The notes beneath the pieces were generated by a model, which was not told where the DNA came from, searched no databases, and saw only the letters and a list, made by a program, of their open reading frames with translations. Shown here in pieces: positions 20,865 through 23,696 of a DNA stretch of 64,000 bases. This DNA comes from Cercospora beticola (lineage: Eukaryota > Ascomycota > Dothideomycetes > Mycosphaerellales > Mycosphaerellaceae): positions 2,666,001 through 2,730,000 of the forward strand of contig NC_088939.1 in NCBI RefSeq assembly GCF_033473495.1, written 5' to 3'. How positions within the stretch are numbered: the stretch's first letter is position 1; the number at the start of each line of letters is the position of its first letter. Position numbers and translations under genes: made by a program.

Positions 20865-21194
20865 GGCACTTTGGTGAGTACAGTCGAACCATCGTCTGTC
20901 ACCAACAATTGCTAACGCCTAATTAGGCGGAGTGGTTGTGAGTATACTCAACTGCCTACATAAATGCAACTTGTTCTAATGAAAATTTAGAACGCGCTGG
21001 CCTGCTATTGGAACTATACGACTCAGTCGTATTCAACTGTCTAGCCAGTTCCTTCGGGAGCGTGGTATGTTCTACTACATGATTCGTTCGACTTGAGCCG
21101 CTTCTAACTGTCTAATAGTGTTCGAATCACACAGGGTATGCCCTGCCACAACGTCACTTCACGATGTACAGTTTCTAACTGTTCAAAAGTGTCG
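20865..21194 (+). tRNA. tRNA-Ser(GCT) interrupted by a canonical tRNA intron and four spliceosomal-type introns
   Basis: Segments: 20865-20873, 20927-20937, 20991-21064, 21119-21135, 21190-21194. Joined and freed of the 35-nt anticodon-loop intron, they give an 81-nt class II tRNA. Acceptor GGCACTT pairs with AGGTGTC (two G-U pairs); T8 G9; D-stem GCG/CGC with GG in the loop; anticodon stem CTGGC/GCCAG, loop CTGCTAA, anticodon GCT. The long variable arm is TTCCTTCGGGAGC, the T-stem GTGTG/CACAC with loop TTCGAAT, and G73 is the serine discriminator. The canonical intron follows A37. The other insertions (53, 53, 54, 54 bp: 20874-20926, 20938-20990, 21065-21118, 21136-21189) start GTGAGT, GTGAGT, GTATGT and GTATGC. 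They end TTAG, TTAG, ATAG and AAAG, with GCTAAC, TTCTAAT, TTCTAAC and TTCTAAC branch-like sites. They lie between 9/10, in the D-loop, between 51/52 and between 68/69. Serine-GCU tRNAs carry a canonical intron in yeast too. Confidence 0.9.
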
Positions 21195-21215: not shown

Positions 21216-21224
21216 TTTTTTTTT
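21216..21224 (+). terminator. Pol III-type T9 terminator after tRNA-Ser
   Basis: A run of nine T begins 21 nt after the mature 3' end. No run of four or more T occurs between 20865 and 21194, so Pol III could read through all introns and stop here. Confidence 0.7.
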
Positions 21225-23086: not shown

Positions 23087-23185
23087 TGGAGCAGGCCCGA
23101 ATCGAACCGGCATCCCTCCCCCCGGCACCTGGACAGTCCAGGCAATAGGCCGAAAGGGAGTGTCTTACCGTTAGACCACAGCCCC
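23087..23185 (-). tRNA. tRNA-like gene 1 (identity unclear; extended anticodon-position arm)
   Basis: 99-nt unit on the minus strand. Acceptor GGGGCTG pairs with CTGCTCC except for one T-T mismatch, and A73 follows. D-stem GTCT/AGAC. The A-box-like TGGTCTAACGG and B-box-like GGTTCGATTCG are present, and T5 follows the 3' end. The T-stem has one G-G mismatch. The central arm is a CTCCC/GGGAG stem, then a GGC/GCC helix and an apical CCTGGAC/GTCCAGG hairpin. If this is an anticodon arm with intron, the loop reads TT-TCG-G (Arg-TCG), but the sister genes lack U33. The minus-strand TATA-like AGCATAATATA lies about 30 nt upstream (23213-23223). Confidence 0.6.
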
Positions 23186-23368
23186 TTTGATGGCAAGATT
23201 GTTTGCATCCAGTATATTATGCTAGCAGTGGAAGGTCCAGTTTGTGTCTTGGTCGAAGTCCGTTACATCTGCAGTGACCAGATCTGCTACACGGTCCTCT
23301 CCCGCATCAGAAGCACCAACATGGCAAAACAAATTTCGCTAGCTAGCAAGAAAGCAAAAGAATAGCGC

Positions 23369-23461
23369 TGGAGCTGGCCGGACTTGAACCGACATCCCAT
23401 CGAGCAAAGCGGGCTTCCCACTGAAAATGCTTGACGTATCTTACCATTGGACCACAGCCCC
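23369..23461 (-). tRNA. tRNA-like gene 2 (identity unclear; extended anticodon-position arm)
   Basis: 93-nt unit. Acceptor GGGGCTG/CAGCTCC is fully paired with one G-U, and A73 follows. D region TGGTCCAATGGTAAGAT; T-arm GTCGG TTCAAGT CCGGC. The central arm is CGTC/GATG, an A-C mismatch, AGCA/TGCT, then an internal loop with TTTTC and an apical AGTGGG/CCCGCT hairpin. No reading gives a normal U33-anticodon loop. T4 follows (23356-23359). The same AGCATAATATG-like upstream element sits at 23490-23500 with the same spacing as in gene 1. Confidence 0.6.
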
Positions 23462-23605
23462 CAGTGACAACGGGACGTCTTGAACGTAGCATATTATGCT
23501 CCTCAAGTGAGGATTGGTATTGTGAGCGACAAGCCTGAGGATGGTTGCAGTGACGCTGCGCTCGACCGATCAAGGATATGGCAAAAGGCAAAAAGACGGT
23601 ATCAT

Positions 23606-23696
23606 TGGAGCAGGCCAGAATCGAACTGGCATCCCTCCGGCAACTGGTCTCCCAGTTCAAAAGGCCAGGAAGATCTTACCATTGGACCACAACCCC
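23606..23696 (-). tRNA. tRNA-like gene 3 (identity unclear; extended anticodon-position arm)
   Basis: 91-nt unit. Acceptor GGGGTTG pairs with CTGCTCC except for one T-T mismatch, and A73 follows. D region TGGTCCAATGGTAAGAT; the T-arm GCCAG TTCGATT CTGGC is perfect. The central arm is CTTCC/GGAGG, a bulged T, GGC/GCC, the loop CTTTTG and an apical AACTGG/CCAGTT hairpin. T5 follows (23590-23594). The 5' flank shares TTTGATGGCA with gene 1, indicating duplication. Confidence 0.6.

Follow-up and report, generated by a model that had tools for sequence, protein, structure and literature searches.

A tRNA-Ser(GCT) gene with four putative spliceosomal introns, and similar introns in many tRNA genes of the same fungal genome

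The locus at positions 20865-21194 of the window (the whole stretch of 64,000 nucleotides analysed here, C5:2666001-2730000 of assembly G000) is best explained as a nuclear tRNA-Ser(GCT) gene containing four U2-type spliceosomal introns in addition to an ordinary 35-nt tRNA intron. Such introns appear to have entered many tRNA genes of this genome, whose maturation would then need the spliceosome as well as the tRNA endonuclease. Judged from sequence, we place the probability of this reading at about 0.92. The assembly spans 36.07 Mb in 10 contigs, and proteins encoded in the window are closest to those of Cercospora zeae-maydis (trehalase 95%, Sly1 98%, S10 peptidase 77%). The type of intron is ordinary; the new part is the class of gene that hosts it. 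We found no description of spliceosomal introns in nuclear tRNA genes in the open-licence PMC literature, judged by title and the start of the abstract.

The anatomy of the locus is given in Table 1. Joined in silico, the five exons give an ARAGORN call of tRNA-Ser(gct) whose 35-nt intron lies at 37/38. The first-pass annotation had read the five segments as a class II serine tRNA with this intron after A37, and the cloverleaf of the joined exons bears this out: the GCT anticodon, G73 and a long variable arm are all present and every stem is paired, with two G-U wobbles (2-71 and 6-67) in the acceptor. Direct reading likewise confirmed the four gaps described there, of 53, 53, 54 and 54 nt, with GTGAGT or GTATG starts, an internal CTAAC or CTAAT and AG ends. 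The boundaries are GT-AG in all four, and in each the branch A is followed by 11 nt to the end of the intron. These introns lie outside 37/38 and are therefore not of the canonical nuclear tRNA kind; we refer to them as ectopic. The further statement that no cloverleaf can form without splicing agrees with searches of the window, in which neither ARAGORN nor Rfam, at its gathering score, reports a tRNA at the unspliced locus.

Table 1. Features of the interrupted tRNA-Ser(GCT) locus, in window coordinates.
Feature	Position	Strand	Description
Exon 1	20865..20873	+	5' acceptor strand, positions 8-9
Ectopic GT-AG intron 1, 53 nt	20874..20926	+	between positions 9 and 10; GTGAGT...GCTAAC...TTAG
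Exon 2	20927..20937	+	5' D stem and most of D loop; A box core
Ectopic GT-AG intron 2, 53 nt	20938..20990	+	D loop; GTGAGT...TCTAAT...TTAG
Exon 3	20991..21064	+	remainder of D arm; anticodon arm, including the canonical intron; variable arm; 3 nt at the start of the T stem
Canonical tRNA intron, 35 nt	21008..21042	+	after A37 (37/38); ARAGORN
Anticodon GCT	21004-21006	+	tRNA-Ser(GCT)
Ectopic GT-AG intron 3, 54 nt	21065..21118	+	inside 5' T stem; GTATGT...TCTAAC...ATAG
Exon 4	21119..21135	+	remaining T arm, B box, acceptor 66-68
Ectopic GT-AG intron 4, 54 nt	21136..21189	+	3' acceptor strand, 68/69; 5' end GTATGC, 3' end AAAG
Exon 5	21190..21194	+	acceptor 69-72 and discriminator G73
T run, probable terminator for RNA polymerase III	21216..21224	+	sequence read directly; T run also 3' of both paralogues

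Further evidence comes from two other Ser(GCT) genes, L122 (C6:1977475, + strand) and L123 (C6:1925480, - strand), recovered by BLAST with a 351-nt genomic query from the locus; the 81-nt joined tRNA matched nothing as a query, its own exons included. The first-pass annotation had left room for other tRNA-Ser(GCT) genes, possibly intact ones. Other copies do exist; both are interrupted, and none was found intact in the searches made. Both share the exon structure of the window gene, and the mature tRNA of L122 is identical to that of the window copy. Introns 1-3 of L122 are 61, 50 and 56% identical to those of the window gene and intron 4 is 76% identical, where random pairs of tRNA introns give 57 ± 4% (300 pairs). 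The T stem of L123 reads AAGAG/CTCTT versus GTGTG/CACAC in the window copy, so that three pairs are changed on both sides, and two of these compensated pairs join exon 3 to exon 4 across intron 3. Furthermore, L123 is without intron 4, its exons being joined exactly (AGGTGTCG), giving four ectopic introns in the window copy, four in L122 and three in L123. Intron 2 sits at three places among the copies (after ...GTT, ...GTTAA and ...GTTAAC), with shifts of 2-3 nt that all give the same spliced sequence. Selection on the spliced product predicts kept exons, a compensated T stem, a shifted intron 2 and an exact absence of intron 4, a pattern that would be hard to obtain from a relic.

The seven paralogue introns, which were found by BLAST and delimited without regard to a branch site, begin with GT in 7/7 cases, end in AG in 5/7 and contain a branch-like site in 7/7, at the spacing seen in the window gene (10-11 nt); across the three Ser(GCT) genes the site is present in all 11 introns. 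The two exceptions to AG are both intron 1. At the junction that restores the cloverleaf, this intron ends ...CCCCAACG (ACG) in L122 and ...CCCTACGG (CGG) in L123, where the window copy has TTAG. In both paralogues a branch-like site lies at the usual spacing to the non-AG junction, and the next AG falls within exon 2, where its use would destroy the D arm. Either an unusual 3' site is used in these two genes, or the intron is no longer spliced and the copies are decaying. The canonical 35-nt intron is nearly unchanged while the GT-AG introns have diverged (34/35 positions identical to the window copy in L122, 35/35 in L123), which suggests a constraint on the canonical intron.

Could five short segments form a tRNA by a coincidence of flexible reading? 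Beyond the freedom of choosing GT and AG there is nothing to recommend this idea, and we give it practically no weight. To test this, a finder excised possible GT...branch...AG segments of 44-82 nt and scored the cloverleaf left behind; it required GT, AG and a branch-like site, placed 8-35 nt from the end at first and 9-14 nt in a tighter version. Between 20801 and 21300 it listed 8 candidate GT-AG introns, and with up to four removed at a time only the four-intron combination reached a cloverleaf score of 17 or more. Its score of 23.2 lies within the range of tRNAs read without ectopic introns in the same run (21.1-23.6), and none of 4000 dinucleotide shuffles of the locus reached 18.5, the best scoring 16.1. 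Across 144 sequences (345 kb, some overlapping; a non-random sample, most fetched for tRNA-like motifs), the finder gave 20 spliced readings, alternatives included, and none with reversed signals, as in an earlier reversed-signal run. The tighter version, applied to more loci, returned 21 spliced readings versus one with reversed signals, which scored 21.1 and is a poorer reading of an intact tRNA, L003 (22.8). The conservation of exons in the paralogues also argues against coincidence.

The first-pass annotation described this one gene; a wider census shows that it does not stand alone. Candidates were drawn from an Rfam tRNA search of the genome (30 matches; 62 of 905 candidates scored), from D-arm, T-loop and T-loop-plus-terminator patterns (20 regions from one set of matches and twelve from another, picked by eye) and from fetched flanks. 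This partial census contains at least 24 tRNA genes with ectopic introns, covering 16 anticodons and 37 introns. Besides the three Ser(GCT) genes, Arg(CCG) has three introns and Arg(TCT) two; one Phe(GAA) gene has two and another one, as do the two Leu(AAG) genes; three Thr(AGT) genes have one each at the same place; two Asp(GTC) and two Val(AAC) genes bear introns; and a single intron-bearing gene was found for each of Leu(CAG), Leu(CAA), Ser(TGA), Ser(AGA), Ser(CGA), Ala(CGC), Pro(TGG) and His(GTG). The introns interrupt the 5' and 3' acceptor strands, 9/10, the D stem and loop, 25/26, the variable arm, the T stem and the T loop, and none of the 37 lies at 37/38. After splicing, the cloverleaves score 21.9-24.0. 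A further 28 tRNA genes have no ectopic intron (31 readings, less two unspliced readings of the intron-bearing genes L068 and L145 and one doubtful case), so that near half of tRNA genes would be interrupted, a rough figure from an incomplete census. Within its scope, all copies found of Ser(GCT), Phe, His, Thr(AGT), Leu(AAG), Leu(CAA) and Leu(CAG) are interrupted.

Some positions recur between different tRNAs: the acceptor position 68/69 is used in both Ser(GCT) and Ser(TGA) L073, and a position in the T loop is common to Leu(AAG) L038 and Ser(CGA) L153. For the third intron of Arg(CCG) L079, two 3' ends score equally; the anticodon stem of Ala(CGC) L137 is imperfect (3.3 of 5); and the readings of His(GTG) L143, Asp L082 and Val L149 were made by eye and scored afterwards. 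For L025 (L025/L047) the ARAGORN call of Lys(ctt) was overridden in favour of Leu(CAG). Several candidates were set aside: L144, a doubtful case scoring 18.6 with two GT-AG introns and a 63-nt canonical intron; L075, scoring 19.7 with no ectopic intron; and alternative splicings of L079, L064, L124 and L025, together with the unspliced readings of L068 and L145. Among 32 D-arm pattern matches, 15 share GAGAGGTTAAAGCG, and at the 13 of these with loci neither ARAGORN nor the finder reports a tRNA.

As a class, the 37 ectopic introns measure 51-59 nt (median 54), although the first finder allowed 44-82 nt. Their 5' ends are GTAAGT (7), GTATGT (6), GTGAGT (5), GTAAGC (5), GTACGT (4) and others (10, including one GCAAGT), and their 3' ends CAG (20), TAG (10), AAG (5), ACG (1) and CGG (1). 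The boundaries, 36 GT and one GC at the 5' side and 35 AG at the 3' side with intron 1 of L122 and L123 as the exceptions, are partly finder-imposed: GT, AG and branch counts hold partly by construction for finder-found genes, but not for the three Ser(GCT) genes, nor for four genes (L038, L040 (= L073), L025/L047 and L026/L034 (= L067)) that had been read by eye before there was a finder. The GC-AG intron (GCAAGT...ACTAAT...CAG) lies in the D loop of tRNA-His(GTG) L143 (C7:2548670-2549110). For the branch site we tested YTRAY, which is looser than the fungal consensus RCTRAY given in PMC5832005. It occurs 6-36 nt from the end in 36 of 37 introns, the remaining one having none in that range, and 10-13 nt from the end in 35, with 24 at one distance; two counting conventions are in use, and the class-wide distance is one more than that counted for Ser(GCT). 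The window contains 505 other GTnnG...AG segments in this length range, and 15 of them have such a site. By protein alignment, five protein-coding introns in three window genes, a small comparison, measure 47-79 nt, are GT-AG and all have CTGAC 10-15 nt from the end. The tRNA introns resemble these but are tighter in length, with mostly CTAAC or CTAAT.

Copies of the same tRNA differ in whether an intron is present. The exons of the Ser(AGA) genes L068 and L088 are the same, and only one of the two genes has an intron, of 53 nt, placed two nucleotides short of the acceptor end. Pro(TGG) L145, with an intron, and L127, with none, have the same mature sequence by reading, all their differences falling in the canonical intron. 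Val(AAC) L148 and L149, with an intron, share 96% exon identity with L006, which has none, one difference lying beside the intron. Three Asp(GTC) copies with the same mature sequence by reading have no intron (L069), one in the T stem (L147) and one in the D arm (L082). Phe(GAA) L133 is without the D-arm intron of L124, a comparison that uses the finder and exon strings since this intron was misaligned in the alignment. The U3 intron of fungi behaves similarly, being present in one paralogue and absent from another in some cases, according to PMC5832005.

Several other accounts of these interruptions were weighed. The locus might be a relic, a tRNA pseudogene invaded by insertions, with another tRNA serving AGC/AGU codons. 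A review (PMC4090602) treats D- and T-arm insertions in eukaryotic tRNA genes as mostly pseudogenes, and the non-AG ends of intron 1 in the two paralogues would fit decay. Additionally, ARAGORN labels L026/L034 (C1:2334043, the same gene as L067) as Ser(gct) interrupted by an 88-nt intron; we overrode this label, and in our reading the gene is Leu(CAA) and contains a GT-AG intron and a canonical one. Against a relic, no intact Ser(GCT) gene emerged from the Rfam search (at the coverage stated above), the D-arm pattern, BLAST with the locus or an anticodon-arm pattern, which gave two matches, neither a tRNA. Exons are kept while introns drift, the T stem has changed in a compensatory manner, and the same anatomy recurs in 24 genes; we consider a relic very unlikely. 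Removal of the ectopic introns by the tRNA-splicing endonuclease through bulge-helix-bulge (BHB) motifs, as in archaea and the red alga Cyanidioschyzon merolae, is rated lower still. This system does remove introns from other arms, several per gene, in the cases described in PMC4090602. Nonetheless, among the 27 of 37 ectopic introns that entered our test (ten were added later, outside it), a near-full BHB was found in none and a 4-bp central helix in one, fewer than in shifted controls (2.8%), and the endonuclease would leave GT...CTAAC...AG unexplained. Boundaries, the branch site and its spacing, likeness to coding introns and lack of BHB motifs agree with the first-pass view of these stretches as probable mRNA-type introns, as do exon conservation versus intron divergence in two paralogues and presence or absence between copies.

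How the introns arose is a separate question, and an origin by multiplication of introner-like elements into tRNA genes, which is compatible with spliceosomal removal, is a possibility to which we give only about one part in five of our belief's weight, hence doubtful. In a related fungal class such elements mark the spread of newly acquired spliceosomal introns; PMC4457414 describes them from Fulvia fulva and Dothistroma septosporum, two related Dothideomycetes. The tRNA introns, unlike introner-like elements, have no family-level sequence similarity: over 666 pairs among the 37 compared, median identity is 0.56, only two pairs, both paralogous, exceed 0.7, and the highest value between non-paralogous genes is 0.69. 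Near-identical copies across unrelated genes, the mark of an introner, were thus not found among these 37 introns, and no recent burst of one element is seen in their sequences; they may be old, degenerate introner copies. The word tRNA is absent from the main text of the introner papers PMC4457414 and PMC9860276.

Spliceosomal introns in small structured non-coding RNA genes are not themselves without precedent. In a 2017 paper (PMC5832005), U3 and U6 are named as the sole small structured RNAs in which interruptions are known to be common. The introns described here resemble the short GT-AG introns of fungal U6 snRNA and U3 snoRNA genes; they differ in that their targets are tRNA genes, with up to four introns each. 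In the present genome the one U6 match over the cut-off is unbroken from end to end, and two 5S genes and the SRP RNA gene each align with their family over the full length without a break; a genome search for RNase P RNA gave no match. Among the polymerase III genes seen, ectopic introns are confined to tRNA genes. Nuclear rDNA of lichen fungi also carries spliceosomal introns, which yeast is reported to remove from polymerase I rRNA (PMC8527467). Both cases put a spliceosomal intron into the product of a polymerase other than polymerase II: rRNA and polymerase I there, tRNA here. Multiple tRNA introns besides 37/38 occur in archaea (Crenarchaeota), nucleomorphs and C. merolae, with BHB motifs guiding the tRNA endonuclease in archaea and C. 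merolae and a removal route described as unknown for the very short nucleomorph introns (PMC4090602). The present genes share with these organisms several non-canonical introns per tRNA gene, but differ from archaea and C. merolae in that BHB motifs are missing and spliceosomal signals are present.

Under our preferred reading, with spliceosomal introns in functional tRNA genes, polymerase III would transcribe the gene to the T run, and the spliceosome would remove the 53-54 nt introns by way of the 5' site, the CTAAC or CTAAT branch and the AG. Because the acceptor strands and the D and T arms are kept apart by introns, spliceosomal splicing should come before folding, trimming of the ends and export: the cloverleaf would form and the ends be trimmed only then, and the canonical intron would be cut by the tRNA endonuclease and the halves joined by ligase. 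The B box lies within one exon and the A-box core of the window copy is together except for its first base, so initiation by polymerase III might still be possible. In Thr(AGT), however, the intron splits the A box, and many ectopic introns lie in the D arm near or inside it, which should weaken promoter recognition by polymerase III and counts against the model. It is probable, with rather less assurance than the main reading, that about half of nuclear tRNA genes depend on the spliceosome, that splicing precedes folding and trimming, that intron gain and loss are ongoing, and that two paralogues may use a non-AG 3' site. Given that every copy found of the seven tRNAs listed above is interrupted, translation itself would then be strictly spliceosome-dependent.

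Nuclear tRNA splicing is taught as an enzyme system apart from the spliceosome. If the introns are real, essential polymerase III transcripts have become spliceosome substrates, tying protein synthesis to pre-mRNA splicing and providing a natural experiment on whether polymerase II and a cap are required for splicing. They also display introns being gained and lost in genes whose product has hardly a nucleotide free of structural constraint, and it is this constraint that makes the splice boundaries readable without RNA. The tRNAscan-SE 2.0 search for non-canonical introns is described for archaeal tRNAs (PMC8450103), so fungal genes of the present kind would presumably be missed by it, and the tRNA sets of such genomes may look incomplete.

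Finally, we record some observations on other tRNA loci. In the 40 nt upstream, CCAAT or CAATCA occurs at 12 of the 24 intron-bearing tRNA genes and at 6 of 27 others, with a background of 4.4% in random 40-mers of the window; it is a possible upstream polymerase III element. A tRNA-like family at window positions 23087-23696 (- strand), with further members at L125, L135 and L136, has ends that read roughly GGGGnTGTGGTCCAATGGTAAGAT ... TTCGAnTCTGGCCTnCTCCA and very different, sometimes long middles; members come in pairs or triplets, several lack a clear anticodon loop, and of those in the window two are called tRNA-Lys by ARAGORN and two tRNA by Rfam. Read by eye, L131, L138 and L152 are tRNA-like, with pairing ends, A and B boxes, long inserts in the anticodon region and no U33 at the expected place; the inserts are perhaps unusual introns. 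An A+T-rich, mitochondrial-looking cluster of tRNA-Ile, -Lys and -Leu at C2:3502591-3503121 (L013) lies in a 5.2-Mb contig, and is perhaps a nuclear copy of mitochondrial DNA.
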